A stretch of 64,000 nucleotides of DNA. It comes from Acidobacteriota bacterium. Its GTDB lineage: Bacteria > Acidobacteriota > Blastocatellia > Chloracidobacteriales > Chloracidobacteriaceae. This document shows positions 3,688 through 55,006 of the stretch, piece by piece (the stretch's first letter is position 1; every line of letters begins with the position of its first letter). The stretch covers positions 62,001 to 126,000 of the forward strand of contig JACQXX010000091.1 of assembly GCA_016208495.1 (NCBI GenBank). Direction: 5' to 3'. The notes below the pieces were generated by a model. The model did no database searches. It was given only the letters and a program-made list of their open reading frames with translations, and was not told where the DNA came from. The position numbers were made by a program, and so were the translations under genes.

Positions 3688-4427
3688 TTTTCCCCGCAGG
3701 GGATATTTAAAGAAGCCGTGGGTCAGCGTCAGCGCCACCCACGGTAAAGCCACCCACGGTAAAGCCACCCACGGTAAAGCCACCCACGGAGTTCAAATGT
3801 TCATTCCCAAAGATGATTTTCGTCAAACTCAATTTGATACCTGGTGAGCAACTCTTTCAGTTCCACCTCAAAAGCTGATTGATGGTGATGAATTTTTTGC
3901 CGAGAGATATACCTTTTTACAGTGTCCACACCTGATTGGCCAATGGTAAATGCTCCATACCCATCCTGCCATTCAAAATCATTGAATTTCGGGCCTTTTG
4001 TTTTTATCCATCGGGATGAATTCCTTTTGAGATCCCGAACTAAATTGCTCAAAGCTAAATTTTTTGAAAGTACAATGAGTAAATGGACATGGTTCGCAGT
4101 GCCGTTAATAGCTAAACATGGGGAATTATGTGATTTCGAAACCTGGGAAATATAGGCAAAGAGTTCAGGTTCAATGTCAGGTGAAATGATATTTCGTCTG
4201 TGTTTGGTGGAAAAAACAACATGAACAAGAAGACTTGTGAGTGATTGCCCCATAAAAATCTATTCTAAACCGCCATCGTGGGAAAGGTGACCCTTTCAGG
4301 GTCACCGGGTGGAGGGGTGGATGTACCGTGGGTGGGTGTGCCGTGGGTGGATGTACCGTGGGTGGATGTACCGTGGGTGGCGCTGACGCTGACCCACGGC
4401 TTCTTTAAATATCCCCTGCGGGGAAAA
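3688..4427. mobile_element. RAYT/REP element: IS200-like transposase flanked by 57-bp perfect inverted repeat
   Basis: A 57-bp sequence at 3688-3744 recurs as an exact inverted copy at 4371-4427. Each arm contains its own hairpin (CCGTGGGT...ACCCACGG) and the palindromic CCCCGCAGGGG. Inside the arms lie tandem CCACCCACGG-type units (left 3735-3789, right about 4321-4380). The transposase gene sits between them. This is the layout of REP/BIME arrays mobilised by a TnpA-REP protein. A decayed extra copy of the arm lies at about 3655-3700. Confidence 0.85.
3801..4253 (-). CDS. tnpA: REP-associated tyrosine transposase (Y1_Tnp, IS200/RAYT type)
   Basis: A 150-residue single-strand DNA transposase. 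It has the HUH motif (NHVHLLI), the catalytic tyrosine in VKRYISRQKIHHH, and the usual opening SLLVHVVFSTKHR. The length is normal and the frame is intact, so it may be active. ATG at 4253. The protein is expected to recognise and cut the hairpins of the surrounding REP-like repeats. The lysine-rich middle is typical of IS200-family proteins. No TnpB partner is present. Confidence 0.88.
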   Translation of the reverse strand: MGQSLTSLLVHVVFSTKHRRNIISPDIEPELFAYISQVSKSHNSPCLAINGTANHVHLLIVLSKNLALSNLVRDLKRNSSRWIKTKGPKFNDFEWQDGYGAFTIGQSGVDTVKRYISRQKIHHHQSAFEVELKELLTRYQIEFDENHLWE

Positions 4428-4444: not shown

Positions 4445-6631
4445 TTACTTTTTCGGTCCAAAATGTGGCCCATCATCGGCCACATCGGCTTTGCGGCCTG
4501 ATTGAGCACCAGAACCACTTTCGGGTCCACCGGCATCCTGGATATAGACAATTCCCGCTGGCGCCTTGATATAAATATCACTCGATGTGACATTGATAAA
4601 ATTCGCACCGACGCGCAATGTGATTGAGCTTCCCGCCTCCAGCACGATTTTATTACCGGCTTTCAGATGGATTTCCTGTCCGGCCTCAACGACATCAACA
4701 CTTCCGATGGTGGCACTCCGGGTGCTTCCAACCGACAAGGTCTGATCCTGGGAAATATGACTGTTTCGGTTGCGGTGAACTTCTTCGACGTGGTCCCGCT
4801 CAACTATCAAATGCTGGTCACGGAGGGTATGCTCACGGCGATCACGCTTCACGTGAACGTCCATGTCACGCTCGGCATGCATAAACAATTGTTCGGCACC
4901 TTTTAAGTCCTCAAAGCGGATTTCGTTATAGTTTTCGGGTGTTCCGTTGAGCGTGCTTCGGCTTTTCCGAGTGCTGACGGTTTTATAATTCCCCTGTTTT
5001 GAATTGGTGCTGTTTGAATCCAGCGTGTAGGGTGGCATGTGGGTGCTGTTATAAAAACTCCCAACCACGTAGGGTTTATCCGGGTCGCCTTCCAGAAAAT
5101 CAACGATGACTTCCTGCCCAATGCGTGGCAACTGGATAAATCCCCAGTTGTCACCGGCCCAGGGAGTTCCAACCCGCAACCAGCAGGAACTGCTTTCATT
5201 GTATTTTCCATACCGGTCCCAATGGAATTGCGCTTTGATGCGACCATATTTGTCAGTATAGATTTCTTCGCCTGGAGGACCAACCACCAGGGCTGTTTGG
5301 GATCCTTGCACTACCGGAATGGGGGTTAACCGGTCTGGACGAAACAATGTGTCGCTTTGCACCACCCGGAACGTGTTCTGAAGAAATGTACCAGGTTCAT
5401 TATTGCTATCACTTTGATAGGCTCTGGTCTCAAGTGTCGTTAGCACATAGGTCTGATTAAAGTCTTTCCGGCTGTGGTCAATTAAGTTAAAAAAGTGTCC
5501 AGTCACAAATGCCCGGCAGTTGCTTGACCCCGTGGCAAAGTAAATCTGGCTGTTGGTGCCTTCTTCTTTGCGCAATTTGGCGTACCGGTCAGTTTCCTTT
5601 TGCATATCCCAGAAATTATACCGTTGCGCCTCGGGACTCCCTGTCGGCTCTGCCGGATAATCATAAATCTCACGAGAACGCTCTCCACCTGAAGTTCCAG
5701 CCTGCGCCGTGTCGGTTTTGGTCGTTGACTCATAAATCTTATCGGCTTTCATAAAGTCAAAATCACGCAGAGCATACTGATTTGGACGAAGCTGATGCTC
5801 AACAATCAGGTCGGTGACCACATCGTATGACTCGGCACCATACATAATTCCAGTGGCCGCGTTCACCGGGTGATATTTGGCGATTGGTTGATCTGGGCAC
5901 TCGCGAAAATGCCCTGGAGCATCACCAAAAATCATTTTGTGACTGGTTTTGCTGTGGACGAAGTAATAAAAAATTCCCTCTTCTTCCATCAATCGGGAAA
6001 GAAAATTAAAGGCTGATTCTCGATACTGAACACAATATTCCCGGATGGTGTACTGTTTTCGATCCAGAACAAATTCAAATTCTGAAATGCCATGCTCGGT
6101 GAGAACTTTTTCCACAATATCCGGAACCGTCATATCCTGGAAAATCCGGCAATCAGTTGATTGGGTAAGCGTCCAAAAGCGTGGTCGAACAGTAGCCCGG
6201 TAGTGTGTAAACCTCGGCGTTGTATTGTGTTGGGCAAATTCCGACACAATCCCATTGATATAGCGGTCATGAGGCTTGCCATGGTCGTCATCGTCATCAA
6301 ACAACCGAATCCGAATGGTTAAGCTCTGATTAATCAATGCATCCAGATCAATGTTTGGGTTTTCCGAATACATTTCCAGGTGGTATTCAAACAACCGTGA
6401 AATGGCTTCCTGCCCCTGGAGTTCGCGGACAATCAACGCATTTGGATCAGGCAACGGGGTTATGACTTTGACGAGCCGTCCATTTTGTGTCCAGCGCAAA
6501 GACCCTTGTCCGCCGCCGCCATCTCCAGGGATTGCAGAAGGCGTCTCATCGGTTTTCTTCAAAGCTGTTCTTGGCATTGGACGGTTAATCGCCGCATTGT
6601 GAGGGTTGATTGATGATTGATTGGCACTCAT
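4445..6631 (-). CDS. vgrG: T6SS tip protein VgrG (TssI)
   Basis: Trimeric spike of the type VI secretion system. After a roughly 45-residue polar leader comes the gp27-like domain (LIVRELQGQEAISRLFEYHL onward, to about residue 370). The gp5-like OB fold follows (GEEIYTDKYGRIKAQFHWDR, then SCWLRVGTPWAGDNWGFIQL and GQEVIVDFLEGDPDKPYVVG). The C-terminal region is a beta-helix-like repeat (DVVEAGQEIHLKAGNKIVLE). The tail ends in a short disordered stretch with no recognisable effector domain, so this is probably a structural, adaptor-loaded VgrG. It is last in the tssE-F-G-vgrG array, separated from tssG by 266 bp filled with repeats, and may have its own promoter. Confidence 0.95.
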   Translation of the reverse strand: MSANQSSINPHNAAINRPMPRTALKKTDETPSAIPGDGGGGQGSLRWTQNGRLVKVITPLPDPNALIVRELQGQEAISRLFEYHLEMYSENPNIDLDALINQSLTIRIRLFDDDDDHGKPHDRYINGIVSEFAQHNTTPRFTHYRATVRPRFWTLTQSTDCRIFQDMTVPDIVEKVLTEHGISEFEFVLDRKQYTIREYCVQYRESAFNFLSRLMEEEGIFYYFVHSKTSHKMIFGDAPGHFRECPDQPIAKYHPVNAATGIMYGAESYDVVTDLIVEHQLRPNQYALRDFDFMKADKIYESTTKTDTAQAGTSGGERSREIYDYPAEPTGSPEAQRYNFWDMQKETDRYAKLRKEEGTNSQIYFATGSSNCRAFVTGHFFNLIDHSRKDFNQTYVLTTLETRAYQSDSNNEPGTFLQNTFRVVQSDTLFRPDRLTPIPVVQGSQTALVVGPPGEEIYTDKYGRIKAQFHWDRYGKYNESSSCWLRVGTPWAGDNWGFIQLPRIGQEVIVDFLEGDPDKPYVVGSFYNSTHMPPYTLDSNSTNSKQGNYKTVSTRKSRSTLNGTPENYNEIRFEDLKGAEQLFMHAERDMDVHVKRDRREHTLRDQHLIVERDHVEEVHRNRNSHISQDQTLSVGSTRSATIGSVDVVEAGQEIHLKAGNKIVLEAGSSITLRVGANFINVTSSDIYIKAPAGIVYIQDAGGPESGSGAQSGRKADVADDGPHFGPKK

Positions 6632-51554: not shown

Positions 51555-51983
51555 ATGAAACAAGTCTGGTTCCTTATCCTTTTTTTGAGCCTTGCCATTT
51601 TTGGTCCATACCACCTGAATGCTGATAGATTGAATTCCCAAAAGAAGACTCTGTCTGTTCAAGATATCTTGCAAGCTCCAGCCGAATGCGAAATTGCCCT
51701 GGCGGTGTTGGATAATGCTCTTCAAAAAGCCAGAGAAGTCAAAGACACAAACATCATTGTGATTGCGCGGCTTGGAAAAAGGGAGCGCAATCAGAAGCTC
51801 AACCAATCCAGGCTGAAGTTTGTCGAAAACCGGTTTAAGTCTTTTGGATGGACCAATTCGGTTTTTGCCGAAGGGAGTCGAGTGTCAGGTTTTGGGTGTA
51901 TCGAAATTTACATTGCCGGGAAGCAATTTGTGGTGCTCCGATTGAAGAAAAACACAAAACACTTTTGTCCTTCCCCGTTCTAG
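51555..51983 (+). CDS. Secreted protein of unknown function
   Basis: A 142-residue protein with a signal peptide (MKQVWFLILFLSLAIFGPYH). The mature part, CEIALAVLDNALQKAREVKD, then IIVIARLGKRERNQKLNQSR and SGFGCIEIYIAGKQFVVLRL, recalls a secreted family I believe is common in Acidobacteria, but I cannot name it. ATG 51555, with AGAGG upstream. It precedes the candidate immunity/toxin pair by 60 bp on the plus strand and might be co-transcribed with the membrane protein that follows. Confidence 0.65.
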   Translation: MKQVWFLILFLSLAIFGPYHLNADRLNSQKKTLSVQDILQAPAECEIALAVLDNALQKAREVKDTNIIVIARLGKRERNQKLNQSRLKFVENRFKSFGWTNSVFAEGSRVSGFGCIEIYIAGKQFVVLRLKKNTKHFCPSPF

Positions 51984-52043: not shown

Positions 52044-52589
52044 ATGGAATTCTTCTTCTATCTCATCAGTGCCGTTGTTTGCTGTTACGTGATGGCCCGA
52101 AGAAAACGCAAGTACATCTTCGGGTGGCTGGTTGTTTGTCTCGGCCTGGGTTTTGCGGCTTACAATGGGTTGAAAACCCCCACCGTTACTGATTTTGTAA
52201 CTTATGAGATTCAGTACGCTTATTGTTTCTATGACAGAGCCAATGGCGATGTTGTCTTTGGGTCGGAAAATGAGACGTACCTCATCAATCAACCCATCTA
52301 TCAAAATCAGTACACTGGCTTGACGGTTGCTGATCGGCTTGCTGTTCGTTCACAGGCGACGATCTGGGTGATGCCAAATTCAAAACTCATTGAAGGAATC
52401 AAGACGGACAATCTGTATCTTCCTCCTGAAAATGGCTTGAGATGGAAGCTTGAGTTGAACAAACACCGAAGCTGGTTGGGGCTATGTGTTGCAATCGCAG
52501 GTTTGGTGATCGTGGGGTTTATGAAGCTGGGACAACTTTTCTTCACTGCTTCATTTAGCTTCACCGGCTGGGCTTGTTCCTTTTTCTGA
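52044..52589 (+). CDS. Membrane protein, candidate immunity to the colicin-M-like toxin
   Basis: A 181-residue protein. Two N-terminal hydrophobic segments (3-17 and 26-42) flank a basic RRKRK. About 100 polar residues (43-143) probably lie in the periplasm. A third helix (LGLCVAIAGLVIVGF near 147-163) is close to the C-terminus. No family recognised. Its 3' end overlaps the 3' end of the minus-strand toxin candidate by 39 bp. In colicin M plasmids the immunity gene cmi is likewise convergent with cma, and its product is periplasmic and membrane-anchored. Immunity is inference from this layout and topology only. Confidence 0.55.
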   Translation: MEFFFYLISAVVCCYVMARRKRKYIFGWLVVCLGLGFAAYNGLKTPTVTDFVTYEIQYAYCFYDRANGDVVFGSENETYLINQPIYQNQYTGLTVADRLAVRSQATIWVMPNSKLIEGIKTDNLYLPPENGLRWKLELNKHRSWLGLCVAIAGLVIVGFMKLGQLFFTASFSFTGWACSFF

Positions 52590-53135
52590 GATAGGTTTCT
52601 CGCCTCGGATTTGGATGTAATATTGGGTGCCAGGTATGAGACTGCCTAATCTCGTTAATCCTTCGGCAAAAATGTTTCGATGAAACGAAGGGTTAAAATC
52701 ATAAATATCATCAAAGGCTTTCAAAATTCCTTTAAATTCAAAGGAACAATCGTCTCTTGTAATAAGCACTCCATTTAATTTTAATGTAATGTTGCCTAAG
52801 AAAAGCGACTGATCACCCGAAGTTAAAAATTTTAATCTTGCATCTTCAATTTGGATTATTTGATTTCGACAAACTTTACCAGGACCTATATAAGCTTTGA
52901 GTGCAGGAAATTGTGACGGTTTAACTGATGACGTATCAATATCATTGAATGACATTCGGAGAGGACGTCCACTCCCACCTCTATAGTGTGAAAATGCCAG
53001 GGTACTATCAATATTCTGAAAAGCAGCTTCAGGTTGCGAAGAGGTTGTAATAGGAGGGGAGATTGGCTGTTGGGGAGGAGATTCAACCAGTGAAGCTCCG
53101 GTGCGATACTGGCCAGGACGTGCGGTTTTCGCCAT
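52551..53135 (-). CDS. Colicin-M-like lipid II hydrolase toxin candidate
   Basis: A 194-residue protein without a signal peptide. Residues 17-35 are Pro/Gln/Ser-rich (PPQQPISPPITTSSQ). From about residue 112 the C-terminal domain reads GNITLKLNGVLI, EFKGILKAFDDIYDFNPSFH, then GLTRLGSLIPGTQYYIQIRG. The D-x-Y-D-x5-H-R active-site pattern of colicin M (D226, Y228, D229, H235, R236) is matched exactly at D143, Y145, D146, H152 and R153. Colicin M cuts lipid II in the periplasm. The receptor/translocation part is missing, so delivery by the T6SS of this window or by another route is needed. ATG 53135 with AAGGA upstream; a TTG at 53153 is rejected. A weak sigma-54-like GG/GC pair lies at about 53181-53196 on the minus strand. 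Confidence 0.6.
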   Translation of the reverse strand: MAKTARPGQYRTGASLVESPPQQPISPPITTSSQPEAAFQNIDSTLAFSHYRGGSGRPLRMSFNDIDTSSVKPSQFPALKAYIGPGKVCRNQIIQIEDARLKFLTSGDQSLFLGNITLKLNGVLITRDDCSFEFKGILKAFDDIYDFNPSFHRNIFAEGLTRLGSLIPGTQYYIQIRGEKPISEKGTSPAGEAK

Positions 53136-53293
53136 ATGTGCGTTCCTTATCAAACATTCAGATGAATTTGAGTTAATCCCGGCAAGAAAGCTGCCCAGGT
53201 CAACTCAGAAATGTAAATCCACTCACCTTCAGGCAAACCGTGGGCCAAACCAAAAAATAATCGTCTCCTCTAAAAAGCTCCTAACCGGATTTT

Positions 53294-53677
53294 GCTAAGT
53301 ACAAGTCCCCATAAATGGGGGATGGAATTTCGGTGATTCCGAATTGGCTTTCGCCCGGATGGGCGCCGGAGAATAGCCGGTGGTTTGCCGCTTTGGGCAC
53401 ACCACCGGAGCTTGGGTCCACGGTGGTCCGCGCCCGGATGGGCGCTGGAACAGGAGTCGTGAGCCAGAAGCCAAAACTTCCACGAAAAGCGGGATCGAAC
53501 CAACTTCCAGCGCCCATCCGGGCGCGAACCCTTGATGGCGGCTCTGTCCGGTGGCCGCATGTCCAAAGCGACACTTGCCACCGGCTATTGTCCGGCGCCC
53601 ATCCGGGCGAAAACCAATTTTCCGCCATTGAGTGGCCGAATTTCATTCCTCTTTTATGGGGACTTGTACTAAGTAAT
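53294..53677. repeat. 380-bp imperfect palindrome with four CGCCCGGATGGGCG hairpins
   Basis: Left arm from CTAAGTACAAGTCCCC (about 53294) and right arm ending GGGGACTTGTACTTAG-like (about 53677) pair over roughly 165 bp with several mismatches, around a loop of about 50 bp. The small stem-loop CGCCC-GGAT-GGGCG occurs twice in each arm (about 53350, 53430, 53515, 53598). Frames inside it translate as mirror images of each other. It could be a MITE-like element or a large structured RNA. No transposase is inside. Confidence 0.75.
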
Positions 53678-53880
53678 ACCACTTTGGGCTGAGGGTATCG
53701 GGCTAAGGGCTGATGGAAATACAATTCTTTCAATAATTTAGCCTTCCCATAACAAGAGAGGTTCATTCCAAAATGGTATAATTGGAAAGTTTGAATTTGT
53801 TGACTACTCACCACTGGCTACTGACTCATTTAAATTCAATTTTAAATCGGCATTCATCTTACTTCTCACTCAAAGAAAAA
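53678..53880. other. Intergenic sequence with GGGCTGA words
   Basis: GGGCTGA/GGGCTAA words lie at about 53689-53715 and CTACTCACC/CTACTGACTC words at about 53803-53827. No gene is seen. Confidence 0.55.
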
Positions 53881-53905
53881 GGCCCAGACAACTTGTGTCT
53901 GGGCC
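53881..53905 (-). terminator. Intrinsic terminator of the Asp-rich protein gene
   Basis: GGCCCAGACA and TGTCTGGGCC pair around ACTTG. On the minus strand TTTTTCTTTG follows. It is about 100 bp after the stop of the gene on that strand. Confidence 0.8.
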
Positions 53906-54004
53906 AGGGCAAAAGCCAATTGCTAAACCACACTGTCATTCAAAAACAGAAACAATTCTGTCTGGGGTTGCTTATATGAACGATGGTAAATTCTCTCCAA
54001 CTGG

Positions 54005-55006
54005 CTAGAAAAGCAGAATTAGTCGCCATCTTCGTCGCCATCTTCGTCGCCATCTTCGTCGCCATCTTCGTCGCCATCTATCTTCGTCGCCATCTTCGTC
54101 GCCATCTTCATCGCCATCTTCGTCGCCATCTTCGTCGCCATCTTCATCGCCATCTTCATCGCCATCTTCGTCTTCTTGAGAATCTGGATCGTCATCATCG
54201 TCAATGCCATCACTGTCATCGTCGTCATCCAGTTGATCTTCAATGTTGTCACCGTCATCGTCTGAGTCTTCATCATTAGACTGGTTGTCACCATCCATAT
54301 CATCGTCCTCTGAATTGGCGACATTGTCTCCATCGATGTCATCATCAATGTTGTTATTCATTCCATCGTCGTCCATATCGCTATCCTCGGCATTGGGTGT
54401 GCCATCACCATCAATGTCGGGGTCATCGGCATTCTTGATATTGTCACCATCAATATCATCATCCCAGGCATTTGGAATTCCATCGCCATCATTATCCGCC
54501 GTTGAGGGCAGAATGTGTGTCAGGCTGAGGGTGAGGGCTGTAAAAGTTGTCAAAACGGCTGATCGAATCACGTTTCCACCGACCTGGGACTGGTGCGCAA
54601 TTTGGTTGAGTGAGGTTCCAGTTACGATTTGCGAGACCACCTGGTCAAGGCTTTGCTGAGTTGCATGAGCGACAACGGCGGCCTTGGCGAGTTTGCCCAG
54701 AGGTATTGATGCTGCATACTTTTCAAGTTCATTGATTGAGAATCCACTGTGGGTTGCCAAAACGTGCAGCGTTACTTGACGAGCTTTGGCATTTGGGTGA
54801 TTTGAGGTGTGATCGGCCAGGCGCTCAAGTTTGTTCGCTGTCCGGCTCACTGATTTATTTGGAGATTTGGCAAAAGCTGAGTGATATGGGGTTTTAAAAA
54901 ACGCACAAGATAAAATCAATGCGCTCAAGAGAAAGAATCGGATGCCTTTGTTGACCCTACGGGAAACAGGAGATGGGGTGGTGTTTGATTGTGCAAGCTG
55001 AGTCAT
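54005..55006 (-). CDS. Secreted Asp-rich (thrombospondin-3-like) protein with frameshifted tail
   Basis: A 333-residue protein. It has a signal peptide (GIRFFLLSALILSCAFFKTP) and a helical domain (about 50-165). From residue 170 come repeats of the D-x-D-G-D-x2-N type (DNDGDGIPNAWDDDIDGDN), a calcium-binding pattern. The C-terminus is a 12-nt GATGGCGACGAA microsatellite encoding DGDE. A 4-nt insertion near 54077-54083 shifts the frame, so the acidic run changes to five W-R-R-R units and the protein ends ...RLILLF. Without it, TAA at 54019-54021 would end the acidic tail at once. The frameshift may be a slippage switch or a sequencing error. ATG 55006. Confidence 0.75.
   Translation of the reverse strand: MTQLAQSNTTPSPVSRRVNKGIRFFLLSALILSCAFFKTPYHSAFAKSPNKSVSRTANKLERLADHTSNHPNAKARQVTLHVLATHSGFSINELEKYAASIPLGKLAKAAVVAHATQQSLDQVVSQIVTGTSLNQIAHQSQVGGNVIRSAVLTTFTALTLSLTHILPSTADNDGDGIPNAWDDDIDGDNIKNADDPDIDGDGTPNAEDSDMDDDGMNNNIDDDIDGDNVANSEDDDMDGDNQSNDEDSDDDGDNIEDQLDDDDDSDGIDDDDDPDSQEDEDGDEDGDEDGDEDGDEDGDEDGDEDGDEDRWRRRWRRRWRRRWRRRWRLILLF

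Follow-up and report, generated by a model that had tools for sequence, protein, structure and literature searches.

The toxin locus and its neighborhood

The window, that is, the whole stretch of 64,000 nucleotides of Acidobacteriota DNA analyzed here, carries on its minus strand a short gene for a stand-alone protein with a Colicin_M (ColM) domain, referred to below as the toxin. The gene has its own ATG start codon and ribosome-binding site, and an alternative TTG start would lengthen its product slightly (Table 1). As the earlier note had described, a gene for a small membrane protein converges on it from the opposite strand and overlaps its 3' end; the overlap measures 39 nt. Just upstream of this membrane gene lies a further small gene whose product has an apparent signal peptide (51555-51983).

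Directly upstream of the toxin gene, the window contains a MITE-like nested palindrome of about 385 bp (53292-53676), with inverted arms of 38-42 nt and four copies of TCGCCCGGATGGGCGC, against 0.02 expected in the window. Further on, a minus-strand gene (54005-55006) encodes a protein with Asp-rich, calcium-binding-like repeats, a long GDED run and an Arg/Trp-rich end; the GDED repeat may be unstable. A promoter scan gave nothing beyond chance, an Rfam search returned no match, and synteny with the nearest genus (G001) is absent except for EgtB-EgtD.

Table 1. Features of the toxin locus and of related ColM loci; positions are those of the window unless a locus is named.
Feature	Position	Strand	Basis or source
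Stand-alone Colicin_M-domain toxin gene, 194 aa	52551-53135	-	PF14859, PDB sequence matches, fold
Alternative TTG start of toxin gene (200 aa)	53153		
Ribosome-binding site AAGGA, 8 nt before toxin ATG (53135)	53144-53148	-	Sequence
Disordered proline-rich N-terminal tail, residues 1-46	52998-53135	-	pLDDT <50 over nearly all of 1-33
ColM catalytic domain, residues 47-185	52581-52997	-	Pfam alignment, profile positions 138-278 of 281
Catalytic motif D143-I-Y145-D146-FNPSF-H152-R153	52677-52709	-	Alignment to colicin M D226-R236
Tail-to-tail overlap of toxin and membrane genes, 39 nt	52551-52589	.	ORF positions
Convergent membrane protein, 181 aa, candidate immunity protein	52044-52589	+	Hydropathy
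Small protein with apparent signal peptide, second and weaker immunity candidate	51555-51983	+	
Rhs C-terminal ColM domain	L012 8034-8528		'Acidobacteria bacterium 5-1'
Rhs C-terminal ColM domain	L014 7902-8471		'Acidobacteria bacterium Ga0077534'
Rhs gene, neighbor ORF, stand-alone ColM ORF, overlapping small TM/lipoprotein-like ORF	L011 7315-8754		Myxococcales MAG fen_1103

A complete colicin M catalytic domain

When searched against Pfam, with matches listed to E 10, and against NCBIfam, the toxin was assigned to no family other than Colicin_M (PF14859; E 9.7e-20, 71.2 bits against a curated cut-off of 27), and the match covers more of the protein than the residues 110-194 to which the earlier note had confined the domain. 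Among PDB sequences, phmmer returned pectocin M2 (5.2e-18), colicin M (1e-17), pectocin M1, syringacin M and PaeM, and nothing else. The claim that the five catalytic residues of colicin M are present in exact spacing is borne out by the alignment, in which D143, Y145, D146, H152 and R153 stand against D226, Y228, D229, H235 and R236. The pattern DxYDx5HR is the catalytic signature of the ColM family (PMC5821083), and alanine at any one of the five positions leaves colicin M with less than 2% of its activity (PMC8469651).

The fold points to the same family. An AlphaFold2 model built from an alignment of seven homologues reaches block pLDDT values of 83-96 across most of the domain, the least confident part being residues ~141-170, which include the catalytic loop (block pLDDT 58-66). 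Searched against the PDB with Foldseek, the model gave 14 matches at E < 0.001, all of them from the ColM family, and in VIA-align it scored high with this family alone (Z 9.6-14.6; pectocin M2 14.6, pectocin M1 13.7, colicin M 11.4, syringacin M 10.8, PaeM 10.3), the first unrelated chain following at 3.8. Residues 37/38-189 of the model are structurally equivalent to colicin M 119/120-272, and the ColM half-barrel is predicted to be present. A chance occurrence of the motif is ruled out by the profile match together with the fold.

Two other assignments were considered and rejected. Membership of DUF3289 finds no profile match, and the broken-hairpin toxins (PMC12419801), among which ColM domains are likewise listed in proteins without a signal peptide or known secretion link, have an extra C-terminal domain, whereas the toxin ends ~10 residues after its ColM domain.

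With colicin M (Cma) of E. coli, the toxin shares ~32% identity over the catalytic domain (120-271) in addition to fold and motif, but it has no counterpart of the translocation and receptor region (1-120), and its gene is chromosomal, neither plasmid-borne nor beside colicin B. Pectocin M2, which is its best match in the PDB both by structure and by sequence, and pectocin M1 have a ferredoxin receptor-binding domain that the toxin lacks. Where colicins have their domains for translocation and receptor binding, the toxin has the N-terminal tail, with seven prolines in its 46 residues; thus, 46 residues precede the Pfam domain, compared with ~120 in colicin M. A receptor-binding domain is absent, the Pfam match starting at profile position 138 of 281, and no signal peptide is evident, in agreement with the earlier note, nor is any hydrophobic segment, hydropathy over 19 residues peaking at 0.76. 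No TonB box is recognizable in the tail, disordered and proline-rich though it is, and searches of its own genome and 10 relatives for tail homologues gave chance-level matches only. Lacking a receptor domain, the toxin is barred from the usual route of colicins through a receptor in the outer membrane, and since it has no part for self-import, some other system must deliver it.

The minimal active domain of colicin M comprises residues 122-271, does not depend on FkpA once import is bypassed, and has ~50 times the in vitro activity of the full-length protein (PMC8469651). Because the structural equivalence begins at residue 119/120 of colicin M, near this boundary, the toxin, if active, would be a natural counterpart of the truncated, chaperone-independent form.

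Related ColM loci

The profile of the family finds a single PF14859 match in the window's own genome, and matches in 3/195 relatives and 2/396 sampled genomes of the phylum, two sets that overlap. Within the same class, each of the two other ColM domains found forms the C-terminal end of an Rhs protein (L012/L002, L014/L003); they share with the toxin the phylum and the domain, and they keep D-x-Y-D, but they are borne by a large Rhs carrier and have lost the motif histidine. Two further loci lie outside the phylum. In a Myxococcales genome (L011), a stand-alone ColM ORF with an intact DIYDFNASTHR motif, no receptor domain and the highest identity to the toxin found (34-36%) differs from it in lacking a good start codon and in lying in an Rhs array, where it is apparently an orphan Rhs tip in an array of toxin-immunity cassettes. 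In Pseudomonas sp. K18 (L013 7503-8910), a bacteriocin-type ColM gene of 313 aa, with a motif that is one residue shorter and lacks the histidine (DIYDFNKSDR), is followed by a membrane protein of 149 aa. These four loci (L011-L014) come from one contig scan with a single peptide pattern, and ColM domains outside the Proteobacteria are surely more widespread than such a scan finds. Scans of viral sequences yielded ColM in two contigs, in both cases as classical bacteriocin-type genes, and our literature search found no paper naming both 'colicin M' and 'Acidobacteria'.

While the D/Y/D/H/R set on which the earlier note relied is thus complete in the window protein, it is not so in all homologues: the histidine is lost in 3 of the 10 other aligned ColM domains. 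Such degeneracy of the catalytic set is known within the family (PMC5821083).

The convergent membrane protein as a candidate immunity protein

The convergent membrane protein has three predicted transmembrane segments (~1-19, 24-43 and 141-173), a basic loop, RRKRK, that follows the first of these, and a loop of ~100 residues that the positive-inside rule predicts to be periplasmic, so that the topology allows the periplasmic loop proposed in the earlier note. Neither Pfam and NCBIfam nor a plasmid search returned a match for it, a suspected likeness of the loop to DUF3592 proteins found no profile match in support, and its single-sequence fold is unreliable (pLDDT 55, pTM 0.27).

Known ColM immunity proteins are diverse, with one membrane anchor in Cmi, PmiB, BmiB and PeiB, three helices in BmiA, four in PmiA and six in PmiC, and the genes of Cmi and PmiC lie downstream of the toxin on the opposite strand (PMC5821083). 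The window's candidate is convergent in the same manner as cmi with cma, although it has three transmembrane segments where Cmi, of YebF type, has one. By analogy with these systems, the convergent protein may confer immunity, in the periplasm or at the inner membrane, which we would put at slightly under even odds. Just as likely is that it is a chance neighbor, immunity being absent, encoded elsewhere, or provided by the periplasmic protein encoded at 51555-51983. Position at the 3' end, tail-to-tail overlap and a topology with a periplasmic loop all fit known ColM immunity and argue against mere chance, as does the membrane or lipoprotein-like ORF that follows the toxin in all four of the other ColM loci.

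The distribution of the family, on the other hand, favors a chance neighbor. Distant homologues of the membrane protein occur in four relatives, one of them detected with a single-sequence query (G042, E 2e-5) and three with a two-row profile (G125, G101 and G117; E 2e-20, 1e-9 and 1e-3, respectively). Their genomic contexts vary, none of their neighborhoods contains a ColM-type toxin, and PF14859 was not found in any of these four genomes, which are not among the three sampled relatives that have it. These homologues could be orphan immunity genes or members of a family with another role. Furthermore, none of the other ColM loci examined carries a member of this family. The convergent pair is not retained in homologous loci either: in L011-L014, the ORF after the toxin lies on the same strand in 4/4 cases and is unrelated in sequence to the window's protein. 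For the immunity function proposed earlier, position and topology are thus in keeping with known ColM immunity proteins, while in the loci and genomes sampled no member of the family was seen together with a ColM toxin outside the window.

The 51555-51983 protein has no match in Pfam. Its homologue in G055 (L056 4111-4644) sits directly after an Rhs toxin tip, and the family may thus include Rhs immunity proteins, a further point in favor of the convergent protein being a chance neighbor.

Possible routes of delivery

A type VI secretion system (T6SS) is encoded in the window, as previously stated, with genes for VgrG (4445-6631), TssG (E 1e-101), TssF (4e-207), a gp25-like TssE, TssM and DotU/TssL; the TssC sheath gene lies on contig C118 of the same genome, and two PAAR genes lie on C64 and C119. 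The genes of this system are dispersed over the genome, with two groups in the window (4445-28879; baseplate, spike and membrane components) and the remainder on these three contigs, and a small ORF resembling a REP-associated-type transposase, read from the sequence, adjoins the VgrG gene (3801-4253).

Delivery of the toxin by a T6SS, as suggested in the earlier note, draws on precedents elsewhere. One ColM-like DUF3289 protein, an orphan in Aeromonas jandaei, has been proven to be a T6SS effector; its immunity protein has 95 aa and three TM segments (PMC12135965). Work in E. coli validated DUF3289 and DUF943 as a toxin-immunity pair (PMC11148199), and Tme1 needs no more than its first 60 residues for T6SS export (PMC10435454). 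Like the toxin, DUF3289 effectors are ColM-like, do without the import parts of colicins, can lie apart from T6SS genes and have a membrane immunity partner (PMC11148199, PMC12135965); they differ in that the toxin matches PF14859 itself and that T6SS export is putative here. Within the genome, no such connection is apparent: 23.7 kb separate the toxin gene from the closest gene of the T6SS, no fusion or gene linkage to an Hcp, VgrG, PAAR or Rhs carrier was found by Pfam, NCBIfam or among the window genes, and the general libraries (Pfam, NCBIfam) detected no MIX, FIX, RIX or WHIX domain in the toxin. We regard contact-dependent delivery as an unlinked T6SS cargo effector as a tentative reading, suggested by analogy and standing below even odds. 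The fuller proposal, in which a stripped-down ColM protein would be an Acidobacteriota T6SS cargo, with the tail as a signal of an undescribed family and a three-TM immunity protein of a new family, is rather doubtful. Export by another system is unlikely, and the same can be said of the toxin having no delivery at present.

Equally unlikely is that the toxin is a reduced M-class bacteriocin, released by lysis, whose tail would serve as a translocation segment through a TonB-dependent receptor of the target. The disordered tail with its prolines is in keeping with this, given that the short proline-rich N-termini of PsyM, BurM and PmnH are thought to aid translocation (PMC8469651). However, the toxin has neither a receptor-binding domain nor a recognizable TonB box, genes for lysis or a holin were not noticed near it, and the bacteriocin-type ColM proteins examined all have at least 100 more residues before the catalytic domain.

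Origin of the toxin gene

The toxin gene has a foreign base composition. Its GC3 of 0.277 is the lowest of the 34 window genes, the other 33 ranging from 0.44 to 0.66, and for this reason the gene, or at least its catalytic part, was probably acquired horizontally. The catalytic part has a GC content of 0.37, a value lying 3.6 SD under the mean for the window, compared with 0.51 for the 138 bases that encode the N-terminal tail, a pattern compatible with an acquired module joined to a local leader.

One conceivable source is an Rhs or other polymorphic toxin, of which the gene would be an orphan tip, a former C-terminus retained, along with its immunity gene, as a cassette for recombination. 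Indeed, the two other ColM domains found in Acidobacteriota are both Rhs C-termini, the Myxococcales ORF lies downstream of an Rhs gene, and the window's genome contains 13 Rhs-core matches. All 13, however, are on contigs other than the window's own (C91), no remnant of Rhs appears in any frame of 53136-54010, and the toxin gene has a start codon and ribosome-binding site of its own. Moreover, a tree built from 11 domains places the two Rhs-ColM domains of Acidobacteriota, with their altered histidine, on their own (support 99/98), while the window domain, its place otherwise unresolved, falls among the canonical sequences from colicin M, Pseudomonas, Pantoea and Myxococcales. Because the tree sets the Rhs-ColM domains apart, descent from a fallen Acidobacteriota Rhs-ColM tip is unlikely, and we consider an orphan Rhs tip improbable overall. 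Least probable is a recently acquired, decaying gene without current function, for which the low GC3, its status as a singleton, Rhs-linked forms aside, among the sampled genomes of the phylum, the adjoining MITE-like element and the histidine losses among its relatives could be adduced, but against which the toxin ORF, its catalytic residues and the partner ORF are all intact and the ribosome-binding site is good.

Proposed function and implications

Taken as a whole, we conclude with a probability of about 0.8 that the product of the minus-strand gene is a free-standing antibacterial toxin with a ColM domain. The lipid II toxin of the earlier note is upheld as far as profile family, fold and catalytic set are concerned; hydrolysis of lipid II, which is carried over from the biochemistry of colicin M, is very likely. 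According to this proposal, the toxin, once delivered to the periplasm of a Gram-negative rival, would cleave lipid II between undecaprenol and pyrophosphate, as colicin M does, which would stop peptidoglycan synthesis and lyse the rival.

To our knowledge, the characterized toxins of PF14859 are proteobacterial bacteriocins that enter via TonB-dependent receptors. The window protein is a member of the ColM domain family that has neither the receptor domain of an M-class bacteriocin nor the gene linkage of a T6SS effector, and it may nonetheless work like one or the other. The presence in Acidobacteriota of a stand-alone ColM protein with an intact catalytic set, alongside ColM domains borne by Rhs proteins in this phylum and in Myxococcota, suggests that several delivery systems make use of the domain as a mobile warhead. 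If active, the toxin would be a natural version of the FkpA-independent colicin M domain that was truncated in the laboratory, and its membrane-protein neighbor would add a further type to the already mixed set of ColM immunity proteins. The reading as T6SS cargo, if true, would give PF14859-type ColM proteins a delivery route independent of colicin receptors.
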